A stretch of DNA of 64,000 bases, taken from contig KV419414.1 in the NCBI GenBank assembly GCA_001630475.1, forward strand, positions 25,323 to 89,322. Direction: 5' to 3'. Below are positions 7,068-61,816 of this stretch, piece after piece (position 1 is the stretch's first letter; each line of letters starts with the position of its first letter). This DNA is from Sistotremastrum niveocremeum HHB9708. Taxonomy: Eukaryota > Basidiomycota > Agaricomycetes > Sistotremastrales > Sistotremastraceae. The position numbers were made by a program, and so were the translations under genes. The notes below the pieces were generated by a model that saw only the letters and a program-made list of their open reading frames with translations, was not told the origin of the DNA and searched no databases.

Positions 7068-7071
7068 CTAT
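7068..7071. repeat. Target-site duplication, left copy (CTAT)
   Basis: CTAT lies directly before the left LTR and again at 17998-18001 directly after the right LTR. Removing one copy plus the element restores the reading frame of the interrupted host gene, which confirms it as the target duplication. Confidence 0.9.
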
Positions 7072-7731
7072 TGTAGAGTCCCCAGAATAAATTTCGTTTT
7101 ATCTTTTCTTTTTCTATTTATTTCTGCTTATCATTTCGACTTCAGACCATTATCAAGACCCCGTAGATATTTATTTTCGGCTTTCTATTTATTTTCCTGA
7201 CTCATAGAGCGAGCTTGCGCGTCGAACAGCCACTTCCGAAGACGCGTAAGCGCCCGCAGCCTCTTTCGTCGTAAGCCTTGTTTCTCATTGGTTTCTTATT
7301 TATTTCTCTTCATTTTTCGACTGTGCCGTAGTTACTGCGTTCAACTGTGCATTCCGAGACTCCCAGTATTTATAGAGCCGCCATTTGTACTAGATAAAAA
7401 AGCTTTAGAGAGAATACAAGACGTGCTCTCAAAGACAGAAAGTGTGATCTATTAAGCCAGAGTGCTTCTTGGATTACAATCTTACGACTATTAGTATCAT
7501 TTACGACCTCCAGCACCGTAGCCCAACACCTCCTCCTTCGATTCCGACTCCCTCTTACCTTTCGACCTCGCTTCCGAACTCCGATCCGAATCTCAACGTG
7601 ATCACGTTCATTTCGTGAACTCGTTGCACTTTCACTTCCTCGACCTCTCAGTCTCTCGTTTACGTTCCCTCAAGCGTATATTAGTCTTTGCAACTGCTAT
7701 CTACGGCCATTAGTAAGTTGTGAACTCTATA
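7072..7731 (+). repeat. Left LTR of the Ty3/gypsy element
   Basis: 660 bp, matching the right LTR at all but one position seen by eye. The ends form an imperfect inverted repeat (TGTAGAG and CTCTATA) rather than a perfect TG-CA pair. A TATTTATAG near 7368-7376 is a plausible promoter. GTAAGT at 7713-7718 is a strong splice donor, well placed for making a spliced subgenomic RNA from the leader. Confidence 0.95.
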
Positions 7732-7733
7732 TC

Positions 7734-7745
7734 TGGTGACCGACG
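7734..7745 (+). promoter_or_regulatory. Primer-binding-site candidate
   Basis: TGGTGACCGACG begins two bases after the left LTR, where the tRNA primer site of an LTR element belongs; TGG is the complement of the tRNA CCA end. The priming tRNA cannot be named by eye. Confidence 0.55.
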
Positions 7746-8243
7746 TAGGGGCAAGGCAAACAAACAAACACGGTTTGAATTACCTGCCTCACTTGACTGT
7801 CACGCTCGGGACGAACCCACCACCTCCTACCCTCAGTAACACACTTCAGTACGGCTTCTTCAGCACCCAGAAGGAGTCTCATACCTCGCCGTCGCCTCAG
7901 TTGGCCCGAACTTCCGTACCTAGACCCTGACAACACCAGTTACGGTCGAGGTCAGCGCAGAACCAAGCAGAACCCCCCTCCACAGCAGCAGCCACCCCAG
8001 ACAGTTCCAGAAAGACCTAGCAACCCAGTTGGAAGACAGTTATCAAGAAGAAACTCGTCTCCAAATTTAGTCCAGCAAGTTTTTGGCAGAGAATCGCCAC
8101 TCACCGACGAAGAAGACCCACAGCAGAACGACCATCCCCCTTCCCCAGAACACGACAATCCTCCATCCCCTCCATCTCTTACACCGCCACACGTTTGGAA
8201 TCCCGACCCAGTCAGAGCAAGATTAGCAGCACTCGCATACCTC

Positions 8244-9845
8244 ATGTCTCAACAAGGAAACAACGCAGGAGGTTCCGGATCAGGTTCTGGATCTGGTAAC
8301 TCCAACCCCCCTCCCGTTCAGATCATCATGCCCGCCGCTTCAATGCCAGTTCAACGTACAAAAGGTGCTCCTAAGTTCGTTGGCTCACCTGAAGACATTC
8401 AAGACTTTCTTGATGAGTTCGAAACTCATGCTCGGAAAGCCAAGCTCGATGAGACTTTAATGACTCAGAGTGTTGGTAAGTACGCTGACCGGAAATCGAA
8501 AGGTTTATGGGAACAATTACCTGGTTACAATGGTGCCTCTTGGCAAGCGTTTCGTAATCAGATTCTTGCCCTGTATCCACAAGTAGATGAATCTAAGAAG
8601 TTTTCTTCTGGAGATTTGGTCAGACTCGTCAAGAAATATCACAAGAAGGACATGAAGAGCTTAGCCGCATTTTCGAAGTACGACAGGAAATTCAACCGTA
8701 TCGCTTTATGGTTGAAATCCAGAAGAACTATGGCAGACTCTGAGATCAATCGTCATTATGCAGAAGGATTCCCATCCAAGACTTACCGGAAGGTTCAAGA
8801 CCGCCTTCAAATATCCTCCCCCAATCACGATCCCCTTGACGATTATTCCTACCCAGAAATCAGAGCCGCTGCCATATGGGTTTTCAAGAGTCGCAAAGCC
8901 AAGCACTACACCTCCGATTCTGATTCTTCAGACTCTGACTCCTCCTCCGATGAAGATTCTGATTCAGAATCGTCTGACGATGAGACATCAAAGAAGAAGA
9001 AGAAAAAGGAAAAGAAGACCCATACCAAGGAAATCACTGTCAAGACCGAACCGGACGCATCCAATACTAGACTTTTCCGTGAGTTAGTATCCCAGATGCA
9101 GCAGCAACAGGACGTACAGAACAAAGAGCGAAAAGAGTTTGCCCAAACTTTGGCCGCCATCACAGCCAAGATTACATCATCAACTCCCAGGAACGTAAAT
9201 CCCAACTCTTTTAATCGCACTCCCCTTTTCCCCAACTCAAGTCCCAACGGTGATCCTAATCGTAACTCCAATTCGACTTGCTTATTCTGTGGACACACTG
9301 GACACGTCATCAAGAATTGTCTAACTGTCTCAGAATATATTAATTCGAACCGAGTCAAGCGAAACGCAGAAGGATACCTGGTCGCACCAAACGGAGATCC
9401 CATCCCTCGAGGAACTCAAGGTCAGCCAATGAAAGAAAGGTTAGATAAATATCTTTCTACAATGGCAACATTTTATGCAAACCTTGTTCCTTCAACTTCT
9501 TCGACTTCGCCAACGCCTTCTCAAACTCAGTCCGCTGGCGCATATATTCTTGAGGCTTTTCCCTTCACAGAAGACTCTGATGAGTCAGCAGCCTATGAGA
9601 ATGTGTTAGCAGGAATCAGAGCAGCAACAGACCAGAAGACAAGACCAACCGTACAGCCAGGACCTCGGGCAAAGGCGCCTGTTCCTAATCCGGCAATTCT
9701 TCCACGGCCTTCTCCGAACGAACCAAGAGTGGCAAACGAGCCAAGACCATCAGAGCAACAGACAAGGCAGCAGTACAAGAGCGCAGCAGAAGACAAAGCC
9801 AAGATCGAAGAAGTCATCCAGATGTTCATGAAAGGAAGACTTACG
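8244..9845 (+). CDS. gag: Gag part of the Ty3/gypsy polyprotein, truncated by an insertion
   Basis: The frame gives 534 Gag residues before the inserted element supplies a TAG. Order: Gly/Ser-rich start; retrotransposon capsid region about 40-200 (FLDEFETHA, WEQLPGY, YAEGFPSKT); a strongly acidic Ser/Asp run about 225-250; a Lys-rich patch; a coiled region rich in Gln; and a CCHC zinc knuckle (CLFCGHTGHVIKNC) at residues 346-359 for RNA packaging. The first in-frame ATG is 8244. The same frame stays open upstream to 7797 with Pro/Gln-rich text but no ATG, so a non-AUG start cannot be excluded. Before the insertion the last codons ran straight into pol. Confidence 0.9.
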
Positions 9846-11908
9846 TAGTGTTCCGAAGTCCGGTCAGGGCAACCGGAGGCGACCGGCAACCGTGACCGGA
9901 CCGGGGTCGGTTGCGACCGGACCCGTGGTTGCGGTCAGACCACATTTCTTGCAGTCGCGGTCGTCGGTCAGTTGGGTTCTCAAAATTTTGAGCAACCGGT
10001 CGTGACCGGTCATGACCGGTCACGACCGCAAACAGTATATGACATGGTATACCCGTACATTGAGGTGTATCTGAGAGATGATATGTCGAGAGCAGGCCAG
10101 ATCGAGAGATGATTTGAACGGGATTTGTTGGAGAGATTGGAGAGCTTCAACGTTTTGACGTTGTGATGAAATGTATAGATCCCTAGCTATATAGATGGCT
10201 GGTCGAACAATGGTGATTAGTTTATGACTGATTCGAAAGAGATCGCAAAGACGCACCATCGATAACCGTTTCAAGACACATAAAACCTCTTCACTGGATC
10301 GCTCAGAGCTACAGTACACTGTCCTATCTCTTATTTTCCAAATTTGCAGCCAGGGCTTTCATGTCTCCGTGCAAACGATCACGGACAGCCACAATCTGAA
10401 ATCAAATTGACAAATATCGACCGCTGGCGATGGTGAAACTAGCCAAGAAAATCATTAATTCGGCGAGAGCGACACAACGGATACGGGAGTGTAAAAGTTT
10501 GTTGGGATGTTGCACCGAGACGCGACATGCGAGTGGATGGAGCATGATTGAGACACGCTTGGAAAGCCAACGAAGACGCGATACTTCAGATGAACGAGAC
10601 ACAGCGGTGAATGACATGGAATCAGGTAAATTGTGAGACAGGGATGACTGAAAGAGAGGACGTTGAAAGCACCAGCAACGAAGGTCGACGTCGACTCTTG
10701 ACCGCGAGGAGGACGCGTCGGCGGAGTCTCAATCAAAGCAAGCCCTTCGTCGACGTACCTTGGATGAATTCGGAAGGCCTGCTCACTCTATCATTCCACC
10801 GTTTCCTTACTTTACCTCTTCTATCATTGCTCTCCTCTCTCCAAATCTCTTGTCAGTGTTGGCTCTTTCAAGTAAAAGATATTTCGTACGAACGTTGGTG
10901 GAAAAAGGCTCAATTCGTGCATGTCGAAGCCTTGAAGGACATCATGTGTAAGTGTTCGTCTATCTAGGTCTCATTTGCTGTCCACTGAGGAATTTCTCTG
11001 AGCCTATATCATATTCTAAATCCCTTCTTCCCTCCGCCGTCTCAACGCCTCCGATGACTACAATCGTCGGGTCAAATTTCGCCTCCATCTTGCCCACTAG
11101 TTCAGCTCGCGCCGCTCCCTCGAATGCCAGTCATAGCCGATTTCGTTCAGTCTTCGATGCGACTTCGTGAAGCTAGTGTACCATCAGGTCTGCGAGTTTG
11201 AAGTGTTGATGTCATTTCGGAGGGCAAGTCGGAGGGTAGGGAGGAATCATATGTGTGCGAATAGAGGTCTGCTCGGAACGAACTCACACTGTTGAGGTAC
11301 GTGTACTGTCCTTATTTTTTTGGTTTCTTTGCTGAAAGCGTCTTCTCTCTGTCAAATCCGAGCTCAACATACTCGTTACCGTCTGCAAGCAATCAGACAT
11401 CGAGTGGTCGACACAGTTACACTCGCATGCCCAGTCTCATCACGCCCATCGTCTCCCCATCCTCTGTCCCTCGATAACCATTGTCGTCGATCACTATTCT
11501 CCTCAACCCTCGTGCTGGCTCTTGTTCCAGATAATCAAAGGTACGAATGTTGGTACCCATCGTTGCGTCGTTCACTCACATATAGGCTTCGCAAATCAAG
11601 TAATATTGATGGCATCCTCTCAAGTTGTGTCTGATACCTAGTAGTCAGTGGTATATAGACATGTATGATCGTAGTAGAGTTGTAATACAGCTGTTGATTA
11701 TCCAAATGAAGAACAACCGGTCAGGCAACCGGTCAAGGAGGCAACCGGTCAGTAGACCGTAACCGGACCGGCAACCTGCGGTCATGACCGTAGACCGCGG
11801 TTGCAGTTGCCGGTCGGGCTTTTTGGGTGCGACCGGCAACCGATATCGGTCTCCGGTCGGCGCCTGCGGCGGGCCAGGGTCCGGTCGTAACCGGACCTCG
11901 AAACCCTA
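9846..11908 (+). mobile_element. hAT-like non-autonomous element nested in gag-pol
   Basis: The 2063-bp insert is flanked by the 8-bp duplication GACTTACG (9838-9845 and 11909-11916). Its ends form imperfect inverted repeats: TAGTGTTCCGAAGTCCGGT on the left, TAGGGTTTCGAGGTCCGGT read inward from the right. An 8-bp duplication with TAG-type termini fits the hAT superfamily. About 180-200 bp at each end is packed with CCGGTC/GACCGG and CAACCGG motifs, several palindromic. No transposase is visible. The interior has a short minus-strand exon-like piece near 10328-10397 (VAVRDRLHGDMKAL after a TTTCAG acceptor), possibly captured host sequence. Excising the element and one duplication fuses gag and pol in frame. 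Confidence 0.88.
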
Positions 11909-11916
11909 GACTTACG

Positions 11917-14900
11917 GAATTGACTCCTGCCCACCTTCTATCGATCAGTCCGGCACTCCGTGTTTATTTGCAGAGTTATGTCCGTACTCACCGAGTTGAA
12001 GCACCTAGGGCTGATGTCAATCATCTCGATCTTGTGGACCACGTAGACGGACGTGACAGCATTGTCTCTCAGGATTCAATTTCACTTCGAGAAGTTGAAG
12101 TCCTCCTCAATCACACGACTCGGACAAAAGCCACCATCGACGACGGATGTTCTATTGTAACCGTCAGGGAAGATCTCTGGAGAAAAATGGAAGGTCCGCC
12201 TCTTCATTTGGAGTCAGTCATGAGCATGGAAACAGCGGATCAGTCTATCAACAAGACGATTGGTAAATTGAAAAACTTACCTCTTCAGATTGGATCCATC
12301 ACTTTCTATGTTCAAGCCCAAGTTGTCAGTAAATCACCAGTCCCTCTCTTACTTGGTATGCCTTTCTTTGCGCTTTCAGGCTGTAGCAAAGATTTTCATA
12401 CTGACGGTGACATGACAATCACCATTACGAACCCCAATCCCCCTTACGAGACCATCGCAGTTCCCACCATTCCCAAAGACCGTCAAGACCGACATCCAGA
12501 GCCAATTCTCTTTCAAGACACCACTCATTCCTCACCTTCGACTTCCATCTCTCATGCTCCGGGAGCATTGAAGAACCTCGCCTCACTTTCTTTAGAAGAA
12601 CTCAGGCCATTTTTCCAACTTCGACAACCTTTCAAACCCTCAGAGAAATACGAACAACAGAAACCTGGTGTATACGTCACAACAAAGTATAAACCAGTAG
12701 CCAAGAAAGTCAATCCAGTCCTGGGAATAATCCCCGATGACTTCAAGATTGTTCGACGATTTCCTGAAGATCCACTCCTTTCACTCCCACCCATTCCAAA
12801 CCCCATTCCGACTTTCATTCCAGGAACTCGACTCACTCAAGAAAGATGGGACAAAATTGAAGAAGATCTCTTACGAACTGGATTTCTCTGGCCAAACGAA
12901 ATTCGTCTAGTGCAAGCAATTCTCCGAAATAATGAGAAAGGTATTGCATGGGATGATACAGAGAAAGGCCAATTTCGCGAGGATTATTTTGAACCTGTCA
13001 AGTTTCCAACAATTCCTCACATTCCATGGGTACAGAAGAACATGCGCATACCTCCAGGACTTCATGATCAATTGATTCAGGAACTTCAGCGCAAGATAGA
13101 CATGGGAGTTCTTGAACCGTCAAATTCTTCATATAGGTCCCGTTGGTTTGTTGTTCCTAAGAAAGACGGTAACCCTCGAATTGTTTGGAATTTGGAACCA
13201 CTGAACGCCGTAACCATCAGAGATGCAGGAGTCCCACCAATCATAGACGAAGTAATAGAAGCATGTGCAGGTCGTACGTGCTATACTCTTGCTGACATCT
13301 ATATAGGTTACGATCATCGGTTGATTCATCCCGATTATCGTGATCTCACCACCGTTCAGACACCACTAGGACCCTTTCGACTTACGACTCTACCTATGGG
13401 CTACACCAACTCCGTCACCATATTTCATCAAGATATTGTTTTTATCTTACAGGATGAAATCCCTCAAGTTGCCCAACCGTTCATTGACGACATCACTGTC
13501 AAAGGTCCAAAGTCGCATTATTTCCTTCCAGACGGTTCATATGAAATTTCCAGTACTCATCCAGGAGTTAGGAGATTTATCTATGAGCATTTAGAAGACG
13601 TCAATCGCATCCTCCACCGACTTCAGCATGCCGGAGCCACAGTTGCCGCCAAGAAGCTTATAATTTGCGTACCTGAAATATCTATTTTAGGACACACTTG
13701 TAATGCTTATGGAAGACGTGCAGATGATTCCCATGTCAAGAAAATAATCGACTGGCCTATCTGTCAAACTGTCACAGCCATTCGAGGTTTTCTAGGAACA
13801 ATGGGACTCATTCGCATTTTTGTCAAGGATTTTGCGAAACGAGCAGCTCCTCTCTCTCAGTTGACTAGAAAGGATGTACCTTTCAATTGGGGACCTGAAC
13901 AGCAAGCTTCCTTTGACGATCTCAAAATGGCAGCAACATCAGCACCCGCACTCAAGCCCATCGATTACGCCTCCAACAGAGAAGTTATTCTTGCCGTTGA
14001 TTCTTCTGTCATTGCTGTCGGATTTATTCTGATGCAAGTAGACGAGAATGGAAAACGTCACCCAGCAAGATATGGATCTGTTACATGGAATCAAACCATC
14101 AGCCGGTATTCTCAAGCAAAACTGGAACTATACGGACTTTGCGTTGCACTCAAGGAACTCAGAGTTTGGTTAGCAGGTATCAATCATTTCATTGTGGAAG
14201 TTGACGCATCATACATCAAGGGAATGCTCAATAACCCTGATGAAGTACCTTCAATGACCTTGAACCGCTGGATTTCATATATTCAGCTTTTCAACTTTGA
14301 GATCCGACATGTTCCTGCAGACCGACACAAAGCCGTAGATGGACTTTCAAGACGATTACCAGCCCCAGGAGAACAAGAGAACGACCCAGAAGAGCTTGAT
14401 GAGATCATCGACAAGAAGTTAGAAGTTTTTATGTTGTCTCAACCATCCCTTTCCCTTAACGACAAAATCGACACTCCCCATTCTCACGAGAACTACGTCA
14501 ATACTCCTTCCAATCATCCTCCAGACGCACCACCTCAGACAAAGGAATATGAGCTGAAAGATCAAGACGTTGAGATAATCCATCAGTATCTTGCGACTCT
14601 CACGCTTCCACCGGACTTAGCCGACGCCACTCGAAAACGAGTTCTGAGACTCACTCCTCGTTTCTTCCTCTCAAATGACAAACTCTATCGAAGACAAGAA
14701 GATGGAAAGCATCAAGTTGTCATTTCCTACCCGGACAGACTCAGAATCATGCGACTAGCTCATGACGAACTCGGACATAGAGGTTTTTACCCAATTCGTC
14801 GTTTGTTAGCTGACAGATTCTGGTGGCCTTCTATGGTTGTAGACCTCAAGTGGTACCTTCAAACATGCGATGAATGTCAAAAGCGCAATACCCTTCGACT

Positions 14901-15876
14901 CCACATCCCTCCGACAGTCCCAATACCCGCTTCTTTATTTTCCCGCGCTCACATGGACACGATGTACATGAATAAGGCAGGAAAATTCAGGTACATAGCC
15001 CACGCTAGGTGTTCACTCACAGCATGGCCAGAAGCGAGGGCTCTACAACGTGAAACAGGTACAACACTCGGCAAGTTTATTTTTGAAGACATTTTGTGCA
15101 GATGGGGCTCGCTCTCGGAAATAGTGACCGATAATGGTACGCCATGGATATCAGCGCTTGATTATCTATCTAAGACGTATCACATCAATCACATCCGGAT
15201 CTCGCCATACAATTCACAAGCTCAGGGAATTGTAGAACGCCAGCATCGCACAATCCGAGAAGCGCTTGTCAAGACCTGTGCCGGAGACCTCTCAAAATGG
15301 TATAGAATATTGCCGTACGTCATTTGGGCTGATCGAGTGACCATTAGGAAATCTACTGGTTATTCTCCATACTACATGGCCCATGGCGTTGAGCCTATTC
15401 TACCTTTCGACATCTCAGAAGCCACCTACCTCGCCCCTTCCCTCTTCGACCTCGTTTCAACTGCCGACCTCATCTCCATTCGTGCCCGCCAACTTGAAAA
15501 ACGTCCAGCAGATCTAGATCGTATGAAAGATCTCATCCTGAAGAGCCGAAAGCAGTCCTCGGATCAATTCGCAAAGGAATTCGCTTTCTCCATAAAGGAC
15601 TACGACTTCAAGCCAGGGCGTCTAGTTCTTGTTAGGAATTCCGGTGCTGAAACAGATCTAGGTCGAAAATGGAAGCCTCGTTATCTTGGACCATACGTCG
15701 TCATCGCTAGGCACAGCGGAGGATCTTACACGCTTGCTGAATTAGATGGGACTATCTCTAAGTTACGGTTCGCTGCTAAGCGAATTATTCCTTACTTTCT
15801 CAGGACTTCAGCAATCTTTCCAGAACCCAACTCCCAAATTTCAGATGCTTCTCTCGAGCAGGAGCTCGATTCCTAA
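11917..15876 (+). CDS. pol: Pol part of the Ty3/gypsy polyprotein (PR-RT-RNaseH-IN)
   Basis: 1319 residues after the insertion junction; the open frame also runs back into the nested element, but that part is not retrotransposon sequence. Order: aspartic protease around TIDDGCSIV (DDG where DSG/DTG is usual); reverse transcriptase with LADIYIGYDH, PLGPFRLTTLPMGY and the catalytic FIDD box; RNase H (ILAVDSSVIAVGF, YSQAKLELYG); integrase with the H2C2 zinc module (HDELGHRGF to CDECQ), D-D-E residues in AHMDTM, VTDNGT and VERQHR; and a GPY/F-type C-terminal module (YLGPYVV). Key residues are present, so the enzymes look intact. The copy is disabled because the insertion separates it from Gag and from any start codon. 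Confidence 0.93.
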   Translation, partial: ELTPAHLLSISPALRVYLQSYVRTHRVEAPRADVNHLDLVDHVDGRDSIVSQDSISLREVEVLLNHTTRTKATIDDGCSIVTVREDLWRKMEGPPLHLESVMSMETADQSINKTIGKLKNLPLQIGSITFYVQAQVVSKSPVPLLLGMPFFALSGCSKDFHTDGDMTITITNPNPPYETIAVPTIPKDRQDRHPEPILFQDTTHSSPSTSISHAPGALKNLASLSLEELRPFFQLRQPFKPSEKYEQQKPGVYVTTKYKPVAKKVNPVLGIIPDDFKIVRRFPEDPLLSLPPIPNPIPTFIPGTRLTQERWDKIEEDLLRTGFLWPNEIRLVQAILRNNEKGIAWDDTEKGQFREDYFEPVKFPTIPHIPWVQKNMRIPPGLHDQLIQELQRKIDMGVLEPSNSSYRSRWFVVPKKDGNPRIVWNLEPLNAVTIRDAGVPPIIDEVIEACAGRTCYTLADIYIGYDHRLIHPDYRDLTTVQTPLGPFRLTTLPMGYTNSVTIFHQDIVFILQDEIPQVAQPFIDDITVKGPKSHYFLPDGSYEISSTHPGVRRFIYEHLEDVNRILHRLQHAGATVAAKKLIICVPEISILGHTCNAYGRRADDSHVKKIIDWPICQTVTAIRGFLGTMGLIRIFVKDFAKRAAPLSQLTRKDVPFNWGPEQQASFDDLKMAATSAPALKPIDYASNREVILAVDSSVIAVGFILMQVDENGKRHPARYGSVTWNQTISRYSQAKLELYGLCVALKELRVWLAGINHFIVEVDASYIKGMLNNPDEVPSMTLNRWISYIQLFNFEIRHVPADRHKAVDGLSRRLPAPGEQENDPEELDEIIDKKLEVFMLSQPSLSLNDKIDTPHSHENYVNTPSNHPPDAPPQTKEYELKDQDVEIIHQYLATLTLPPDLADATRKRVLRLTPRFFLSNDKLYRRQEDGKHQVVISYPDRLRIMRLAHDELGHRGFYPIRRLLADRFWWPSMVVDLKWYLQTCDECQKRNTLRLHIPPTVPIPASLFSRAHMDTMYMNKAGKFRYIAHARCSLTAWPEARALQRETGTTLGKFIFEDILCRWGSLSEIVTDNGTPWISALDYLSKTYHINHIRISPYNSQAQGIVERQHRTIREALVKTCAGDLSKWYRILPYVIWADRVTIRKSTGYSPYYMAHGVEPILPFDISEATYLAPSLFDLVSTADLISIRARQLEKRPADLDRMKDLILKSRKQSSDQFAKEFAFSIKDYDFKPGRLVLVRNSGAETDLGRKWKPRYLGPYVVIARHSGGSYTLAELDGTISKLRFAAKRIIPYFLRTSAIFPEPNSQISDASLEQELDS

Positions 15877-15888
15877 GTCCCCGGGAGA
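15875..15888 (+). repeat. Internal copy of the polypurine-tract motif
   Basis: AAGTCCCCGGGAGA occurs immediately at the pol stop and again at 17324-17337 touching the right LTR. The pair brackets the block that carries the third ORF. Confidence 0.75.
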
Positions 15889-16219
15889 GGTGCCTGAATT
15901 TTCGTCATCATTTTTGCCATCATCGCCATCATTCCTTTTCGAACCGACTCATTAATTTCAAGCGCCCAGTCATATGCTTCTCCCGATCATCAAAACCTTA
16001 AACCACTATCTTTTGGACTTCTCAGCTTCTTTGCTTCGCTTCAATAGCCTTTTTGGATACTTCCTCCTTTCAGAAAATCAAAAAACCTTTTAAAAACTCT
16101 CAATTTTATTCCACAGACTTCATCCCCCCTCATTTCCTTGCCTCCTCGCATCTCTCACTTCGCACAACACCTATCTATCAGATCCCAAAGGTGGAAATTG
16201 TTGTGATCGGTGCCTGGAT

Positions 16220-16250
16220 TTCTTATCTCATTTTTTTTTTCCATTTTTAG
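16220..16250 (+). promoter_or_regulatory. Splice-acceptor-like tract before the third ORF
   Basis: A pyrimidine run with ten or more consecutive T residues ends TTTTTAG at 16250, two bases before the ATG of the third ORF. Together with the GTAAGT donor at 7713 in the LTR it could generate a spliced subgenomic mRNA, as retroviruses do for env. This is an inference; no transcript data are available. Confidence 0.5.
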
Positions 16251-16252
16251 CA

Positions 16253-17302
16253 ATGAATTCCTCCCCCCTTCCTTCCTATCACTCTTTCCTCTTCTCGAAG
16301 AAGCACGGCAACCCTCGACGTCCTCTCACCACCAAGCATGGGCTTGCCTACCTCCGAAACTGGGCAGAACGAGTCCGCCGCCACCGCATCCTATCATACC
16401 GAGACGCCGTCGGTGTCTTCAGCGAAATCCTTTACATCGGTTCTTACCTCAACCGTCGCTGCGACATTACCCTCTCCTTCATCTCGAAGATATTCCTCAA
16501 AGCTCTAGGCAACAAGAAGACCAAGTTCCTTAGGAACTGGGGTCAGCTCGAGTTTCAGGAAGGCTGGACCGGCATCTTGGCTCAGCAGAAAGTGTTCGAA
16601 GCGCTCAGGCACGCATTTCCGTACTTGTCTCTTGATAAGCATGGTCCTGCGAATGTTGAGTACACCATGCCCATGCCCTCCGATCTCACCTTTCAGCAAG
16701 TTATTGGCATCAAGAACTTCGCCAATGACTTGTACATCCGACTCAACTCCTTCAACCAACTCCCTCGACGCACCCTCATAGCCGACATGCGTTGGGAGAT
16801 CTGCGAGTTTGCCGAGCAGCACCGAGGCGCCGAAGATATCGGTTCTATGGTACCGGCTGATCCTAATCTCGATCGCCCTTATCAAGACGAAGACCAAGTC
16901 CCTCCTTATCGACCCGACGACCACGATCATACTCCATCCTCATCCGACTCACCGGTCTCTCAGGGTCCTCCCTCCCTTATTTCGATCTCGTCAACTTCGT
17001 CATCCTCGACTTCGTCGCTCTCCCTTCCTCCCAAACCATCCTTTCGTCGCACTGTGAAGAAACCGGTTGAGTTCCAGCCTAAGAAGCCACATCAGCCATG
17101 GCCTGGCTTTCCTATCGCTCCCCCTCCATTTTCACCTCGCCCACTTCCAGTTCCACCAACTCTTCACTCCTCCCATCTCTCCAAGTTCATCTCTCTTCCT
17201 CAGACGTCTCCTGCCGAAGAGCCCGAATGGCTTGTCCCAGTCAGAAATGGAGATCGTACCTCCTATATCCATTCCGCCTTCGTACGCCCTATTACGCCTT
17301 GA
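16253..17302 (+). CDS. Extra ORF between pol and the 3-prime LTR, unknown function
   Basis: 349 residues on the sense strand, in the position env occupies in some retroelements. There is no signal peptide or membrane segment, so it is not an envelope protein. Residues 1-200 look folded and helical (HGLAYLRNWAERVRRH, FSEILYIGSYLN, GQLEFQEGW, IADMRWEICEFAEQHRG). The rest is low-complexity Ser/Pro with basic patches (RRTVKKPVEFQPKKP). It overlaps no other reading frame and ends 35 bp before the LTR. I do not recognise a domain. It could be a captured host gene or a lineage-specific accessory protein, for example in RNA binding, silencing suppression or targeting. The ATG directly follows a splice-acceptor-like tract. 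Confidence 0.75.
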   Translation: MNSSPLPSYHSFLFSKKHGNPRRPLTTKHGLAYLRNWAERVRRHRILSYRDAVGVFSEILYIGSYLNRRCDITLSFISKIFLKALGNKKTKFLRNWGQLEFQEGWTGILAQQKVFEALRHAFPYLSLDKHGPANVEYTMPMPSDLTFQQVIGIKNFANDLYIRLNSFNQLPRRTLIADMRWEICEFAEQHRGAEDIGSMVPADPNLDRPYQDEDQVPPYRPDDHDHTPSSSDSPVSQGPPSLISISSTSSSSTSSLSLPPKPSFRRTVKKPVEFQPKKPHQPWPGFPIAPPPFSPRPLPVPPTLHSSHLSKFISLPQTSPAEEPEWLVPVRNGDRTSYIHSAFVRPITP

Positions 17303-17323
17303 GTGATCGGGGACGATCAATTC

Positions 17324-17337
17324 AAGTCCCCGGGAGA
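17324..17337 (+). promoter_or_regulatory. Polypurine tract candidate
   Basis: AAGTCCCCGGGAGA directly abuts the right LTR, the position used to prime plus-strand DNA synthesis. It is only partly purine-rich (CGGGAGA at its end) and duplicates the motif at 15875. Confidence 0.6.
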
Positions 17338-17997
17338 TGTAGAGTCCCCAGAATAAATTTCGTTTTATCTTTTCTTTTTCTATTTATTTCTGCTTATCAT
17401 TTCGACTTCAGACCATTATCAAGACCCCGTAGATATTTATTTTCGGCTTTCTATTTATTTTCCTGACTCATAGAGCGAGCTTGCGCGTCGAACAGCCACT
17501 TCCGAAGACGCGTAAGCGCCCGCAGCCTCTTTCGTCGTAAGCCTTGTTTCTCATTGGTTTCTTATTTATTTCTCTTCATTTTTCGACTGTGCCGTAGTTA
17601 CTGCGTTCAACTGTGCATTCCGAGACTCCCAGTATTTATAGAGCCGCCATTTGTACTAGATAAAAAAGCTTTAGAGAGAATACAAGACGTGCTCTCAAAG
17701 ACAGAAAGTGTGATCTATTAAGCCAGAGTGCTTCTTGGATTACAATCTTACGACTATTAGTATCATTTACGACCTCCAGCACCGTAGCCCAACACCTCCT
17801 CCTTCGATTCCGACTCCCTCTTACCTTTCGACCTCGCTTCCGAACTCCGATCCGAATCTCAACGTGATCACGTTCATTTCGTGAACTCGTTGCACTTTCA
17901 CTTCCTCGACCTCTCAGTCTCTCGTTTACGTTCCCTCAAGCGTATATTAGTCTTCGCAACTGCTATCTACGGCCATTAGTAAGTTGTGAACTCTATA
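17338..17997 (+). repeat. Right LTR of the Ty3/gypsy element
   Basis: 660 bp direct copy of the left LTR. The only difference I found is C at 17955 against T at 7689. Confidence 0.95.
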
Positions 17998-18140
17998 CTA
18001 TCGGAATATGTATGCTGAACAGGCTTCTCGACGAAAATCTCGCAGTGACTGTTCTGGCGTTGCTAAAAGAAGTCATCAATCACCGTCGTTCTTTACCACT
18101 GGAGAAAAAGAGGACATACGGTTTCAAAGAACATAGGCAT
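17998..18140 (-). pseudogene. 5-prime part of the small gene split by the retrotransposon
   Basis: Exon 1 (18120-18140, ATG then PMFFET) is joined by a 57-nt intron (donor GTATGT, acceptor CTTTTAG) to the first 65 nt of exon 2 (17998-18062: CEIFVEKPVQHTYSD). The sequence then runs into the CTAT target duplication. Its continuation lies at 6769-7067, beyond the 10.9-kb element, in the same frame. A1/T-rich TATAAGAG sequence 65-85 nt upstream of the ATG may be the promoter. As it stands the gene should make at most a short fusion reading into LTR sequence. Confidence 0.6.
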
Positions 18141-28304: not shown

Positions 28305-28483
28305 ACCGTCGCTAGTGATGCCGCCGTCCGGTCCGGCAAAGCGTCCGAACCCGGTCCGAACCGAACTGAACCGGCGGTCCGGTTCAGGTTCAGGTTCGGT
28401 TCGACCTGGGGGACCAACGGTTCGGTCCGCGGTTCGAGCTGTTTGCCTGGCAGCCCGGACGCGGTTCGAACCGAACTGAACCG

Positions 28484-28902
28484 CACCTGTACCTCATCAT
28501 ATTCTAAGCGAACTAGGAGGCAGATTCGGTTAGTTCCGGCCAGCTAATTAGCTCGGAAGATGCTCTCCTCCCTCCCAGCAAGGCTCCCAGCCAAAACTGA
28601 GGGACTTAGCCGTAGAAACACTCATTGTAAATACTAAAAATAATAAAGTACCTTCGGACTATCTCCCGTACCTCCGTCGCCCCTTAAATCGCTTCTTTGG
28701 ACCCTGTTCAACGTCACCGCCGCCTCGGAACAGCCTCGGCGCCGCCCTTCGCGCCAAGACCCTGCTTCCGCTCCGCCCCGACCTCCGCCCCGTTGCCGCC
28801 GCTTCGCCGTCGCTGTCGCTGACAACGAGCTCGCTGCTGCTGCCCTCCCTTGCTCAACACCCCAACATATATACCTTGCCGTGATCGTCTCACTCATCGC
28901 TA
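28484..28902 (+). repeat. Left arm of the long inverted repeat
   Basis: 419 bp, matched in reverse complement by 31618-32037. Confidence 0.8.
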
Positions 28903-29817
28903 TACACTCATACACTTTATATTTACTTCTGGATCCGCTCAACACTGGTGATTGTGGCTTTGTGGGTCCACTGTTCATGTTCACTTAGTGATGGTCATTG
29001 GAGGGCTGATTTATTTGAGTATATTAGACCATGTAGTTATATACACTATCCTGTCACTGTACCACCAATGAATGCAGCTGAGTCGATCTGACCACATAGC
29101 GACGGTCTGGAGGGGCGCGGGAATTATCAGCGCGGGAATTACGATGTCGACGGGGAACGATAGGTGATAGAGTGTAAAGTGCTGGCATAGATGTAGAGAT
29201 ACACAGAGAATGAGTTAGTAGGAGCGTGAGGAAGAAGTTGAATGTACTCACCGTTGATGGACGCTCTCATCCTGCAACATCTCTCCTAACTCTTCTTCAT
29301 CCCACTCCTTGCATTCCATTGCCCCCCATTCCTTTCTTCTCATCCAGCACTTGACGTCGCCACAGCACGTCCGTCCGTCTGTCTATCATCTCCTCCAAGT
29401 CCTGACTCTTCCTGTATGGTGGTGGCGAGAATGAGCCTCATATCAGCCTGCTATGTACGTTAGACTAGATGTAGACTCTAAGTAGACTTGAATATACGTA
29501 TCTTGGACTGCGACACTCTCGGGGTCCCCATGTGCTTCCCGATCTCTGCCCAAACAATTCGTTCGATTCCGTACGCACCAAGAGATGGCCTTCGCCCTAC
29601 ATCGTGATTGTGGAGTTGTATTCCGAGTTCTAGAGGCAATGGCTGCTTGATATGGAGCCACAAAGAAGCCTATCTGCTATCGATCTGTAAAGTAAGCGAC
29701 CGTAATACATCACGCAAATCAAACACCTACCTCCGCACACTCGACTGCCTGACGCCCTTAGCGTCGTTCATTTGTTGAGTTTGGTGTCTTATCATCATCC
29801 ATACAGTACAGACCCAC

Positions 29818-30010: not shown

Positions 30011-31617
30011 GATATCGTGAGGATGGAGAGGATTTCCAACCGTGACTACAATTGTCACGCAACTCCGTCTGCCATCGCTGGTCGGAGATTGTCACGCTGA
30101 AGATAAGATGAGTATTGTAAGCCTTATCGTACGCTCAGAACTTGACCTACAGGGCTGTAATGTTGAACGTAGATGTTTCATAGTGTATAGAAGCCACTAA
30201 TGCAGTCCGATCTATGGAAAAGAAAAAATGTTCTCGAAGGTATCTGGTCTCGCTCGAAAACAGCTCAACCATTCGTACGACGTTTCAGTCAACACTCGTG
30301 AAGGGTCCTACTTTCGTGACACATACATCTTCATCAGAAATCATTCTAGAGTTCATATACAGTGGAAAAATCATCATATTAAGCTCGTAATACACGGAAA
30401 CTAATGCAAAGTGACATTTTCTCGCAAAATTTGACCGACGTCGAGTCTGTGATGGCGACACGTCTAAAATCGTCCTCTATACCTGTTACTTTGGAATATA
30501 GCCCTTTGATATCTCTTGGATGGCCACGTCCTTCTCCTAGTCGGGATTCTGACTCCTTCATGATAAAACGACTTGTCGTAAGGGAGGAGCCTGGAGCGAG
30601 TGATGGGCCGTTGTAACATCGGCACTGATAGGGCTTACCTTAGGCGATACGGTGGAGGTTGGTGGGACCACAGGCTCAATCGTGAATTCATAAACCTAAA
30701 TGGAGATGTCAAGAACGAAAGAAAGCAACAAATAAACGATGAGCGTGCGCACCTCGTAGAAGACATGATACGCTACCCATGGCGGGACCTCAATCTCTGT
30801 CTATGGTGTGTTCGCAGCTTGTCGATACGCAGCGGATGCACAATCTCCCGCCCCTAGTCTTCAGTCTGCGATGCTGCAGCGTCTTGATCGTTCACTTGTG
30901 ATCGTCGATCGACAGCACGGTTTGCTGGAGGATGTAGCTGAGGGGGCGGTATCATCGCGGTACGTGAATAGAACGGCTGAGAGCTCACCAAAATTGTCCA
31001 TGTCATCACATCAGCCTGCCCATGAATCAGCCTGCCCGCTCTCCAAAGCCCTGACCTCAACCCTCAACCACCTGCCCTCTCTTACATCGCTCGGCGAACC
31101 CAATCCTCTGGCTCACATCGACATCATGTTGCACTAGATTGTGATGTTGAGTTGGGGCGTACCCAGACGAATGCCTTGTGAGAGCTTCGTCCCGGACCAA
31201 GTCTTCGAGGTGGGTCTCGTCCGGCGGCATGGTGTTCCGGTGCTTCATGGTGGCTAAAGACGACACACGATGAGTAAAAAATGGAGTCTAACATAGAGGT
31301 AAGTCATACCTATGTTTTCTTCTGCAAGTCGTACAATGAGAGTGCGTAGTGGGCAGAACGGACGAGCCGTACCCGTACTGGTCGGAACTCGTAAACAACT
31401 ATGAAACAGATGGCGCTGTTCGCACCTGTTAGACTGTGGAGTATCCTATAGCTCATATAGCAAGCATGTGAGGTCGTTGTGACGGTATTGCATCAGCGAG
31501 TGGTTGGTGAGCAGGCGGTGAGCGAGACGATGTTCGGGCGCTTACAGACATGCGTTGAAGACGTCGTCGAGTTTGTTGACAGAGTGATCAGATCGTCTAG
31601 ATAGGGGTGGCATTGTG

Positions 31618-32037
31618 TAGCCATGAATGAGACGACTCCGGCAGTATATATATGTCGGGGTGTTGGCCAAGGGAGGGTGGGAGGAACGAGCTCATCGTCA
31701 AGGACGATGAGAACGAAGCGGCGGCAAGCGAGGCGGAGTCGGGGCGGAGCGGAAGCAGGGTCTTGGCGCGAAGGGCGGCGCCGAGGCTGTTCCGAGGCGG
31801 CGGTGACGTTGAACAGGGTCCAAAGAAGCGATTTAAGGGGCGACGGAGGTACGGGAGATAGTCCGAAGGTACTTTATTATTTTTAGTATTTACAATGAGT
31901 GTTTCTACGGCTAAGTCCCTCAGTTTTGGCTGGGAGCCTTGCTGGGAGGGAGGAGAGCATCTTCCGAGCTAATTAGCTGGCCGGAACTAACCGAATCTGC
32001 CTCCTAGTTCGCTTAGAATATGATGAGGTACAGGTGC
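31618..32037 (-). repeat. Right arm of the long inverted repeat
   Basis: 420 bp, the reverse complement of 28484-28902 with scattered differences. Confidence 0.8.
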
Positions 32038-58325: not shown

Positions 58326-61300
58326 CTACATCCCCTCGCCACTTAAATCCTGACCGTCCCCGGGCAGATGCATCCTGTCGATATCCGCAACCCGATCTTT
58401 CAACTTATAATCTTCTTCGTCAAACTCTATCTCGGGGATGGGGACTGGACTGCGTGAATGGTAGGGGACGAGTCGATTGGCGGAGAATCGGAGGCGTGAG
58501 ACCGTGCCATCCAATTCGGCGAGGGTGTAGGAACCGTGAGGCCAGCGTTTGACCACAATGTACGGCCCGTTGTAGCGTTTAGCATATTTGCGAGATATGT
58601 CGGAGTCGATAGTCACATTTCTAACCAATACCAGAGACCGTGGCGGGAAATTGAAGTCTTGAATGACAGCGTGAAGACGCTTTTCGTACTGAGCCGCAGC
58701 TTGGCGACGTCTCTCGGCAACCTGCTCCTGAGCCTGATCGAGGTCGGCTTGACGATGCAGGAGCTGTTGCATGCGAAGTTCTATAAGGGTCTTCTGAGAG
58801 AGCGGCTGTGTGATATCAGGTACGAGGTACGTAGCTTCGGCTATATCAAAGGGCATCAGGGGCTCGATCCCATGTACCATGTAGTAGGGAGAATGCCCCG
58901 TCGCTTTCCGTGTAGTAGTCCGGTCGGCCCACATAACATGATGTAGTAAGATAGGCCACTGTTTGATATTATCACCGCAGATTTTGAGGATGGACTCGCG
59001 GACGTCGCGATGAGTCCGTTCTACAGCACCGTTCGATTGTGAGTGGTACGGCGAGATCGTGATATGGTTAATAGGAAACTTAGCTGCAAGAAACTGCAGC
59101 GCAGCTTTGATAGCGGCACCGTTGTCCGTAACGATCTCCATAACACTGCCCCAACGACATAGTACATTCTCCAATAAAAACGCTGCTAGCGTCTGCGCGG
59201 TCTCTTGTCGTAAGGCTCGGTATTCGACGTATGAGGTGAGGGAGTCGCGTGCTTGGACAATGTAGCGGAAGTTGTTAGAGGGGGGCATGAACATGGTATC
59301 GACATAGGCTTTGAAGAAGAGCCGCATGGGGCGAGCGACGCGAGGAGGGGTGACGACGGTTGTGAATTGGCGCTGCTGACACTGAAGGCAGCTTTTCAGC
59401 CACCAGACAACGTCGTCTTGGAGTCCTGGCCACCAGACCCGCGTGAGAAGGTTCATCCGTACGGCATAGACACCGCGATGTCCCATAGCTTCGTGCGCAT
59501 CTGTTAGGAGGCGTGAACGATCAGCGAGCTCAATACAAAGCTGATGACGTCCTTGACGATCACGGCGGAACAACTTATCGTCGAGAATAAAATAGTTCCC
59601 ACACTCCCGGATGAAACCTTTACGTTCGGATTCCGAGGCAAACTGGGGGAAGACCGACAAACGGAGGTAGGTTCGTATGTGGTCCAGGCGTGTAAAACGT
59701 GCTAGAATGGAAGGAGAGGTGGGGATTTCAGGAGTCGGATGCGAAGTCGTATAGATGGAGGGCAGATGGAGACGAGTATCGATAAGAAGGATAAGATTCA
59801 GATGACGGTCCAACCACTCTTCGGCTTGTTCAGCTGTGGTTTCGACTACGTCATCTGGAGAGGCAACTCGTCGGGAAAGGCCATCGACGGCTACATGAGA
59901 GGGGGCAGGTACATGCCGGAGTTCGAAGTCGAAGAGTCGGATAGCAGCAATCCAGCGATTTAGAGCTGCGGAGGGGATGACATCGGGGTTGTTGATCATT
60001 CCCTTAATGTAACTGGCGTCGACTTCGAGGATGAGATGGGGAACACGAAAGAGTGCCTGTCGGCAGGCGTGGAGGGCACGATAGACGCCATAGAGTTCGA
60101 GCTTGGCCTGGGAATAGCGAGATTCGCGTTCATTGAGGGTAATAGACCCGAACCGTGCGATACGTCGCTTCCCGTTGTCATCGTTCTGACACAGAATGTA
60201 ACCGATTGCTATGTTGGATGTATCAATAGCTAGAATAACCGGATGAGCCGAAACGTAGCTGATAGGCCTTAGGCAAGGCGAAGTCGCAATTGCGCTCTTG
60301 AGGAAATCCATTGCTTGCTGCTGAGGCTGTTCCCAGCGAAACTCGGTGTCTTTCTTTACGAGATCGGTCAGGGGTCGTGCGAGAGATGCGAAACCCTTGA
60401 TCCAAGTCCTAACAACGCCGCAGGTGCCTAAGAATGCTCGAATCTGATGAAGATTCTCACACGGCGGCCATTTGACGATTTTGTCGAGGACGAGCGGATC
60501 CGCAAGACGACCTTCATACGTGCAGAGCGAATTAAAAATATGGCACGTTGGTTGGCAGAGAATGAGTTTCTTAGCTGAGAAGGTGCCGCCGGCACATTTG
60601 ATGTAATGCATGACCCGATTAAGAATCAAGACGACTTCTACAATGAATCGCCTGCAGCCGAGTACGACGAGTGACATTTCGTACGATCCGTCGGGTAGCT
60701 CGTATCGTGTTCGAGGGGCTTTCAAGAACACATCATCTATGAATGATCGGACGTTATCGGGGATCTCATCTTGTAGAATGAATGTGACATCACCGTGAAA
60801 AATAACCACCGAATTAGTCCAGCCCATCGGAATAGCTGTGAGTCGCATAGGACCGAGAGGGGTCTGGAAGGTGGTAAGATCACGTGAATCAACATCGAGA
60901 GCTCGATGATCGTAGCCGACAAAGAGATCTAAAGAACAGTAGCAGGAGCGGCCTGCGAATTCTTCGACGATCTCGTCCATGAACGGAGGTACACCAGCGT
61001 TCTTGATTGTGACGGCGTTGAGAGGTTGGAGGTCATGAACGATGCGAAGAGATTTGCCGTCTTTCTTTAGCACACAAAAATAGCGAGATCGATAGGAAGA
61101 AGATGAAGGCTCATAGATGCCGGTCTGGATTTTGTCTCGGATGATGCGCATGACTTCGTCGAGGACACCGGGAGGAATAGGCATGTTTCGATGCGCCCAT
61201 GGTACGTGCTCGACAACAGGGATAGTGACGGGATCGAAGTAAGAAGCTTTAAAAGCTCCTTTCATGCTTTCGTCCCATGCGAGAGCTTCTTCGTTCGCCT

Positions 61301-61736
61301 TGAGCACGTAAGCGAGTAAATCTATTTCGGCAGGTAAAAGGAACTTAGCTGGGTCTAAATCCAGCGCGTCGTATCGTTCCTGAGTTAGGCGAGTGCCCGG
61401 TGTAAATTTTGGAGGGATTTGGGGTATCGGAGGGAGTGTGAGGTTCGGATCAATGGGTATACGGCGGTTGATACGAAATTGAGGAGGGAGCGTGGTCGCA
61501 ACCGGATGAACTTTCCGTGCTGCCGGTTTATAGAACTGTTTTGAGCGAGAGGTGACGAAGGGAAACACGGAAGCGAATTGAGAAGGAGTGAAGTGAGCGA
61601 AATGGAAAAGTGATGAGAAGGAATGTTTTTGGGGTTTAAGGAGATAGGAGTCGTCCGTAGGAAGAGGATCGAGCAATGTTTTTGGGTTTAGCATTTTGTA
61701 ATGAATGAGAGGGGTATCCATGGAAAGAAGGGTCAT
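58326..61736 (-). CDS. pol: Pol (RT-RNaseH-IN) of the second Ty3/gypsy element
   Basis: The open frame is 1136 residues; upstream in the same frame it extends to about 61830. RT shows CSLDLFVGYDH, PMRLTAIPMGW and FIDD. RNase H shows ILAIDTSNIAIGY and YSQAKLELYG. Integrase has the zinc module HEAMGHRGV to CLQCQ, then AYVDTMFM, VTDNGA and VERTHRD for D-D-E, and a GPY-type end (YNGPYIVV). The catalytic residues are all present. The stop codon lies inside the first bases of the LTR (TGTAG). It is out of frame with the protease by one base. Confidence 0.9.
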   Translation of the reverse strand: MTLLSMDTPLIHYKMLNPKTLLDPLPTDDSYLLKPQKHSFSSLFHFAHFTPSQFASVFPFVTSRSKQFYKPAARKVHPVATTLPPQFRINRRIPIDPNLTLPPIPQIPPKFTPGTRLTQERYDALDLDPAKFLLPAEIDLLAYVLKANEEALAWDESMKGAFKASYFDPVTIPVVEHVPWAHRNMPIPPGVLDEVMRIIRDKIQTGIYEPSSSSYRSRYFCVLKKDGKSLRIVHDLQPLNAVTIKNAGVPPFMDEIVEEFAGRSCYCSLDLFVGYDHRALDVDSRDLTTFQTPLGPMRLTAIPMGWTNSVVIFHGDVTFILQDEIPDNVRSFIDDVFLKAPRTRYELPDGSYEMSLVVLGCRRFIVEVVLILNRVMHYIKCAGGTFSAKKLILCQPTCHIFNSLCTYEGRLADPLVLDKIVKWPPCENLHQIRAFLGTCGVVRTWIKGFASLARPLTDLVKKDTEFRWEQPQQQAMDFLKSAIATSPCLRPISYVSAHPVILAIDTSNIAIGYILCQNDDNGKRRIARFGSITLNERESRYSQAKLELYGVYRALHACRQALFRVPHLILEVDASYIKGMINNPDVIPSAALNRWIAAIRLFDFELRHVPAPSHVAVDGLSRRVASPDDVVETTAEQAEEWLDRHLNLILLIDTRLHLPSIYTTSHPTPEIPTSPSILARFTRLDHIRTYLRLSVFPQFASESERKGFIRECGNYFILDDKLFRRDRQGRHQLCIELADRSRLLTDAHEAMGHRGVYAVRMNLLTRVWWPGLQDDVVWWLKSCLQCQQRQFTTVVTPPRVARPMRLFFKAYVDTMFMPPSNNFRYIVQARDSLTSYVEYRALRQETAQTLAAFLLENVLCRWGSVMEIVTDNGAAIKAALQFLAAKFPINHITISPYHSQSNGAVERTHRDVRESILKICGDNIKQWPILLHHVMWADRTTTRKATGHSPYYMVHGIEPLMPFDIAEATYLVPDITQPLSQKTLIELRMQQLLHRQADLDQAQEQVAERRRQAAAQYEKRLHAVIQDFNFPPRSLVLVRNVTIDSDISRKYAKRYNGPYIVVKRWPHGSYTLAELDGTVSRLRFSANRLVPYHSRSPVPIPEIEFDEEDYKLKDRVADIDRMHLPGDGQDLSGEGM
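58330..58340 (-). promoter_or_regulatory. Polypurine tract and LTR start of the second element
   Basis: On the minus strand GGCGAGGGGA directly precedes TGTAGCG, matching the TGTAGAG start of the first element's LTR. This fixes the 3-prime LTR boundary even though the LTR's outer end is unresolved. Confidence 0.6.
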
Positions 61737-61816
61737 GTTGTCCGAAGCAAGGGTATCTGAAGATGATGCGAGAGGCGAGCTGTGTTGATCGGAAAGCAGA
61801 GGCTCACCAGGGGGCT

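Follow-up and report, generated by a model that had tools for sequence, protein, structure and literature searches.

The DNA analysed here, called the window throughout, is a 64-kb stretch (C21:25323-89322) of the 34.7-Mb genome of the fungus now named Sertulicium (Sistotremastrum) niveocremeum HHB9708. It contains a young Ty3/gypsy retrotransposon, designated WIN, in which a sense open reading frame of 349 codons (ORF3) is situated between pol and the 3' long terminal repeat (LTR). This frame probably represents a third gene derived from gag, and it is bracketed by two copies of a module made of a hairpin and a polypurine tract. Other loci of the same genome are named by contig (C9a, C20, C66, etc.). 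The features of WIN are the following:

7068..7071: left target-site duplication, CTAT, matching 17998-18001
7072..7731, plus strand: 5' LTR of 660 base pairs (bp), TGTAGAG...CTCTATA, 1 mismatch to the 3' LTR
7734..7749, plus strand: primer-binding-site-like sequence TGGTGACCGACG..., starting 2 nucleotides (nt) after the LTR; the start TGGTGACCGACG is common to C9b and C30
8244..9848, plus strand: gag, with capsid region (about 40-215) and zinc knuckle; the insert below truncates its reading frame
9846..11908, plus strand: hAT-like insert of 2,063 bp in gag-pol, with ends TAGTGTT...AACCCTA, foreign to the element proper
11909..15876, plus strand: pol (protease, RNase H, integrase zinc domain); the frame as listed begins within the insert, at 11827
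15854..15869, plus strand: internal hairpin TCGAGC-AGGA-GCTCGA, within the last pol codons and 5 nt upstream of the internal tract
15875..15888, plus strand: internal 14-nt polypurine box AAGTCCCCGGGAGA, overlapping the pol stop
15877..16252, plus strand: ORF3 leader, G-poor (12% G)
16253..17302, plus strand: ORF3, 349 amino acids (aa), Gag-capsid-like third gene
16346..16618, plus strand: ORF3 residues 32-122, similar in profile comparison to the Gag capsid region (second half)
17304..17319, plus strand: terminal hairpin TGATCG-GGGA-CGATCA, 4 nt upstream of the terminal tract
17324..17337, plus strand: terminal polypurine box AAGTCCCCGGGAGA, abutting the 3' LTR
17338..17997, plus strand: 3' LTR, 660 bp
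17998..18001: right target-site duplication, CTAT

The element shows the hallmarks of Ty3/gypsy (LTRs, target-site duplication, polypurine tract and primer-site-like sequence), and its LTRs differ by a single mismatch in 660. The order protease - RNase H - integrase was recovered in pol by Pfam (protease 91-181, RNase H 688-820, integrase zinc domain 971-1022), with Asp_protease_2 barely over its cut-off and gag-asp_proteas barely under; an RVT_1 match was confined to the second gypsy element of the window, under its cut-off. This copy of WIN is broken in gag-pol, since the hAT-like insert, flanked by an 8-bp duplication GACTTACG (9838-9845 and 11909-11916), interrupts the frame. The pol stop is TAA (15874-15876). 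As described in a first-pass annotation of the window, the polypurine box is found exactly at the pol stop (15875-15888) and again at 17324-17337, abutting the LTR that starts at 17338, and the 349-codon sense frame (16253-17302) lies in the block between the two.

The same annotation had recognised no similarity for this frame, which is correct for Pfam, where ORF3 has no match. A simple blastp comparison of ORF3 with gag also gave nothing, and profile comparison was used for that reason; at this level ORF3 does resemble Gag. With nine ORF3 members aligned by hhalign to 13 gags, ORF3 residues 32-122 matched the second half of the capsid region (E 1.2e-5, score 47.7, probability 81%; reverse direction, E 4.1e-5, probability 70%), the controls reaching at most 17.8 over 100 column shuffles and 15.5 for the reversed profile. 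A second run of ORF3 against gag gave E 1.5e-5 and a probability of 79%, and four split comparisons recovered the same region with scores of 26.9-38.1 (E 0.0097-0.00022), against at most 14.5 in their controls (four pol chunks and reversed gag). A narrower profile set (8 ORF3s, 5 gags) yielded E 0.0013 and 0.0006 at 18-29% probability, with a score of 33.8 vs 19.9 for the best of 60 shuffles. The profile similarity between the two sequences can be graded as moderate. Five helices are predicted at ORF3 residues 27-121, and the structure model is likewise five-helix, at low confidence. A model built without alignment was poor (predicted local distance difference test, pLDDT, of 49), and the fold matches listed for it were uninformative. 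None of the nine ORF3 members possesses a zinc knuckle (nucleocapsid), so that ORF3 is not a full Gag; as the match is confined to the second capsid half, its domain may be referred to as "CTD"-like (C-terminal domain of the capsid, CA). The derivation of ORF3 from gag as a third gene thus appears to us clearly probable.

Searches of the genome with ORF3 returned six places, WIN included, and searches with pol, in which 34 of 69 candidates were scored, at least 43 matches, including copies at 99, 74, 67, 62, 52 and 49% identity. The 3' end of pol was examined in the window and 17 further loci; in 8 of these 18 it is followed by an open ORF3 homologue (WIN, C9a, C20, C9b, C66, C62, C107 and C30), and a ninth was read at C22:373k, directly after a C22-type pol end. 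ORF3 is absent after pol in five ends (C23, C104, C8, C56 and C21b, the second gypsy element of the window), and three were not judged (C22:346k, with an assembly gap, C37 and C18). Between lineages, ORF3 proteins share 18-36% identity, the corresponding pols being 62-74% identical to that of WIN, and blastp matches between lineages go down to E 2e-27 (E 2e-7 for C107-C20); judged from their sequences, they are homologous across lineages. The ORF3 of C62 matches that of C66 to about residue 225, the tail beyond being replaced. At C108 (L046, C108:7500-12822) only 516 bp separate the pol stop from the LTR, with both hairpin-tract modules retained and no ORF3 match, and C68 has, by eye, a short C20-ORF3-like stretch between an assembly gap and an insert (tblastn E only 0.13). 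A hAT-like insert similar to that of WIN seems to sit inside the ORF3 of C68; in C9a, one of 824 bp (duplication GTGATCGG) separates ORF3 from the terminal tract. Presence and absence of the block group on the pol tree into an ORF3 clade (support 0.927) and an ORF-less clade (0.987); some rows of this tree are partial, its single outgroup is distant, and C22 is represented by the 343k copy whereas ORF3 was read at 373k. A single gain, or a single loss, would explain the distribution. Outside this genome, no ORF3 homologue was found in protein database searches, one of them covering the best 7,996 candidates, in databases that may contain few fungal transposons.

The ratio of non-synonymous to synonymous rates (dN/dS) across copies reveals purifying selection on ORF3 in close pairs: 0.041 for WIN-C9a (22 synonymous and 3 non-synonymous changes), 0.071 for the C66-C62 core (dS 1.7, near saturation) and 0.187 for C107-C30, the pol of the latter pair being at 0.013. 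These values rule out neutral decay. The C66-C62 pol comparison was excluded as internally inconsistent, a stop in C62 having probably shifted codons, and distant ORF3 pairs are little informative, with saturated synonymous sites (dN/dS 0.42-0.49 where computable). Among the better-conserved clade members, identity is 24-29% for ORF3 cores vs 47-65% for the Gag capsid region (four pairs); the values are 90 vs 95% for C107-C30, and 22 vs 30% for WIN-C107, where both are near the floor. The gene is kept, yet it evolves faster than gag and far faster than pol.

The first-pass annotation had further proposed that an ancestral element ended at the first tract and later gained the block, duplicating the tract, and took the second gypsy element of the window as support. 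Its features are these:

58326..61736, minus strand: pol of C21b, without ORF3, with its stop in the first LTR bases
58351..58366, minus strand: single terminal hairpin TGCCCG-GGGA-CGGTCA, with one stem mismatch, within pol
58331..58344, minus strand: single polypurine box AAGTGGCGAGGGGA, the LTR running from 58330

The pol stop of C21b, TAG, falls within the first five LTR bases (58330-58326, minus strand), and the element indeed ends pol directly at its LTR with no block. It belongs, on the other hand, to a separate lineage (pol 49% identical to WIN) and by itself says little in favour of a gain. More generally, the ORF-less relatives possess a single hairpin plus tract inside the last pol codons, at the LTR, in place of the internal copy of the ORF-bearing elements; the LTR start was placed in C56 by comparing its two LTRs, in C21b by similarity to C56, and in C23, C104 and C8 from the box alone. 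The idea of a duplicated tract is hence borne out, an ancestral element ending at the first tract agrees with it, and ORF-bearing relatives share the duplication (see below), but a recent gain confined to WIN is ruled out, as ORF3 homologues span pol identities down to 62%. A gain would be older than the divergence of the clade, within which pol proteins share about 62% identity. Elsewhere in the window, two inverted repeat pairs are possibly transposon ends: 28483-28906 / 31614-32037 (424 nt at 92%) and 55341-55444 / 57163-57266 (104 nt at 93%).

Besides its two exact copies, AAGTCCCCGGGAGA has no other match in the 64 kb at up to 2 mismatches. Shuffles at that tolerance give a mean of 0.43 matches, with two or more in 9 of 100, so what carries weight is that the two copies are both exact, together with their positions. 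The duplicated unit is larger than the tract: a hairpin with a six-pair core and a four-base loop, mostly GGGA or AGGA, lies 3-6 nt upstream of both copies, the one at the pol stop and the one next to the 3' LTR. A hairpin score of at least 5 was obtained for 20 of 21 boxes (internal and terminal, from ORF3-bearing and ORF-less elements), and 19 also have an RGGR loop, against 16 and 0.67%, respectively, of 18,622 random background 34-mers from the same loci. The C9b terminal hairpin, with an internal stem mismatch, fails the strict rule, and the loop of C8 differs. The C22 terminus, read later, shows ATGACT-GGGA-AGTCAT ahead of AAGTAAGGGGGAGA. Covariation was studied on 13 distinct hairpins (19 sequences; C9a was excluded as a near-copy of WIN), which were positioned by their hairpin, favouring pairing, and whose related rows are non-independent: 71 of 78 stem cells are paired (91%, dropping to 10-36% in slid controls), 37 cells show changes on both sides vs a shuffled mean of 13.3, and the covariation score is 1.07 vs 0.29, none of 500 shuffles being as high in any of these three. 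Two further measures (pairs with double change, and number of pair types) gave no excess over shuffles on the 13 distinct hairpins. A pairing between loop and tract (GGGGAC with GTCCCC in WIN) was considered and dropped, as C20 retains the loop without a complementary tract.

Of 11 readable pol ends in the ORF3 clade, 8 have kept the box at the pol stop, which is missing in C107, C30 and C22; its absence in these three relatives shows that the internal module is dispensable for ORF3. Comparing the internal tract with the terminal one of the same element in four distinct families (C9a and C108 left out, as they repeat the tracts of WIN and C66), there are 0, 1, 1 and 1 mismatches of 14, the observed sum of 3 being the lowest of 24 permutations and the next 4. 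As to frame organisation, gag-protease and reverse transcriptase-integrase are seemingly separate frames in C107, C30, C22, C23, C104, C8, C56 and C21b (L015, L016, L036, L037; window 58326-63094), and C20 and C9b have apparently one fused gag-pol frame (open frames of 1995 and 1963 aa). The internal tract is retained only in the subclade containing the fused-frame elements.

The best overall explanation, to which we assign a probability of about 0.7, is that of a clade-wide, Gag-derived third gene, anciently acquired and located between two hairpin-plus-polypurine modules. ORF3 would represent the second half of a capsid, a CA-CTD-like domain with a divergent tail, devoid of the first half and of the zinc knuckle, and it would have come to lie between pol and the 3' LTR in the clade ancestor along with a second copy of the 3'-terminal module (the hairpin, mostly with a GGGA or AGGA loop, 3-6 nt, and the 14-nt polypurine box). 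Strand transfer in reverse transcription, during minus-strand synthesis, could have produced the block: the reverse transcriptase would copy the 3' module, jump into gag RNA and then resume at the 3' module of a second template, and the order pol - module - ORF3 - module - LTR is what such a transfer via gag RNA would give. A shorter RNA may serve as template for ORF3, a weakly supported suggestion. The protein might bind Gag through its CTD-type surface and enter particles without the first half, and it would thereby limit or tune assembly in the manner of Ty1 p22/p18; its rapid divergence would then reflect family-specific pairing with Gag. The internal module, in turn, would prime plus-strand DNA a second time. 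Any function of ORF3 is deduced from sequence; a p22-like restraint, or Gag-directed regulator, is by analogy the likeliest single role, although an uncertain one in absolute terms.

Different origins of ORF3 have to be weighed against its derivation from gag. ORF3 could be a captured gene, from the host or from another element, whose helical core became Gag-like by convergence. Several results speak for this and against a capsid ancestry: fold searches with the ORF3 models give no significant capsid match, the capsid structures in the fold and PDB searches amounting to a weak HTLV-1 row and an HTLV-1 Gag fragment at E 8.5; there is no Pfam or PDB-sequence support; and identity to Gag in the profile match is about 11%. 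Capture is nonetheless unlikely in our opinion, as the profile score stands well above its control maximum (47.7 vs 17.8), the same region was found in all four split comparisons, and the matching protein is encoded by the element itself. A gene of envelope type, such as errantiviruses or the Athila-type elements of plants carry, would suit the location on the sense strand between pol and the 3' LTR, and WIN has both a donor-like GTAAGT at the LTR end (7713) and a polypyrimidine stretch with AG right before the ORF3 ATG. This idea is already largely refuted and very improbable: the highest 19-residue Kyte-Doolittle mean is 1.41, no membrane segment appears in any of the nine members by hydropathy (the measure applied, rather than a dedicated membrane or signal-peptide predictor), and an env-like protein was rejected on these grounds. 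The splice signals are not conserved either, C20 and C30 showing no GTAAGT-type donor in their LTR and leader stretches; conserved splicing of ORF3 is therefore unsupported, the donor and acceptor candidates of WIN not being shared by relatives. The ORF3 leader contains 8 ATGs vs 20.7 in mononucleotide shuffles (1 of 2000 as low), a weak sign of scanning, since GTA and TGA, which use the same three letters, have counts of only 7 and 11.

The history and role of the block also admit other accounts. The distribution may reflect gain or loss, because a deletion between the two modules would also yield the ORF-less structure. ORF3 might be ancestral and have been lost in the ORF-less clade: the modules are direct repeats between which recombination would excise ORF3 exactly, the block of C108 is reduced with both modules kept, and a comparable loss has been argued for Diaspora of soybean in PMC1142308. 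Some gain is needed at some point even so, such a third gene being to our knowledge not typical of Ty3/gypsy elements, and we deem this loss improbable. Regarding the internal module, a second plus-strand priming site, proposed by analogy, is a tentative assignment, and we hold just as tentatively that hairpin and tract are a mere relic of insertion without a second priming role, retained since the hairpin overlaps the pol end. The relic would agree with the three relatives lacking the internal tract, with the coding location of the internal hairpin, and with a within-element tract match based on just four families, whose next permutation is one higher. It would not foresee that a 14-nt box, non-coding except for two bases, is kept in most pol ends of the clade, that the internal box resembles the terminal box of its own element, or that the internal stem of C9b is altered on both sides together. 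Instead of restraining assembly, finally, ORF3 could promote it as a structural helper, i.e., a minor capsid or assembly protein or a separate capsid-like supply. Similarity to Gag fits this role equally, strong purifying selection between close copies suits a gene needed by the element itself, and an extra capsid-type protein could balance the ratio in the apparently fused gag-pol of C20 and C9b. The match is limited, however, to the second capsid half with no zinc knuckle, and C107 and C30 carry ORF3 despite their seemingly separate frames, so gag-pol fusion does not explain ORF3. The helper role is doubtful and ranks close behind the Gag-directed regulator.

Among known systems, the closest parallel is Ty1 p22/p18, which, according to a proposal in PMC8458377, uses the CTD to join the growing particle and blocks it. 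As described there, p22 is all-helical and comprises the capsid C-terminal domain but not the N-terminal half, the element itself producing it from a shorter RNA; the ORF3 match is confined to that same half, although the "CTD" label is itself deduced from it. Unlike ORF3, p22 has the very sequence of its Gag and its start within gag (PMC8458377). ORF3 is a separate, strongly diverged gene after pol and not in frame within gag; it may therefore work like a p22, an inhibition suggested by analogy, but is not a p22. Drt2, a domesticated Ty1' capsid fragment, is reported in PMC10951436 as a restriction factor; like ORF3, it is a Gag-derived protein with a capsid C-terminal domain kept as its own gene, but it is a host gene, whereas ORF3 resides in and moves with the element. 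In the same genome, two tandem gag-only open frames of 291 and 330 aa were observed (L066:964-1836 and L066:2797-3786; C25:105500-110000), which are 69% identical, have a dN/dS of 0.245 and lack a zinc knuckle, with no C25 pol among the matches listed; they are candidate domesticated Gag genes, possibly Drt2-like restriction factors.

Extra ORFs between pol and the LTR are already known from plants and rotifers, according to PMC7264820 and PMC5408684. The plant aORF-3S and env-like ORFs (Athila, Calypso; PMC7264820, PMC1142308) are likewise sense frames between pol and the 3' LTR with lineage-dependent presence, but they are described in these sources as env-like, while ORF3 is Gag-like and has no membrane segment. 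The ORF3s of bdelloid rotifer LTR elements are also third ORFs of varied, partly non-envelope nature; they are esterases, exonucleases and a paramyxovirus-type fusion protein, none being Gag-like in the abstract of PMC5408684. A T-rich box upstream of the tract, with no hairpin, is described in passages of PMC10085805. Neither a Gag-like ORF in env position nor a duplicated hairpin-tract module was found in the titles, abstract openings and passages surveyed in an open-licence library. Lentiviruses have a central polypurine tract and Ty1 has a second one. WIN resembles them in having a second copy of the terminal tract inside the element; unlike theirs, its tract lies at the pol stop and is accompanied by a covarying hairpin that is duplicated as well, and its priming role is putative.

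The usual interpretation of third genes in LTR elements is that they are envelope-like, or else captured genes of unknown role. ORF3, instead, seems traceable to the element's own gag, and a gene that is selected yet changes faster than gag and pol is what would be expected of a Gag-directed regulator or partner. We can conceive, as a speculative extension, of a capsid-based self-brake: a half-gag copy in envelope position between priming modules, diverged per family to tell its own Gag from the Gags of co-resident families, with the duplicated module acting as a cassette that is added or dropped by strand transfer in one step and offers two plus-strand starts. If ORF3 restrains assembly, self-control by a capsid fragment would have arisen independently of that of Ty1 and of host genes like Drt2 or Fv1. 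The duplicated hairpin-polypurine module would provide a concrete, testable route for inserting a gene between pol and the LTR, and the RNA hairpin may be part of the plus-strand priming site.

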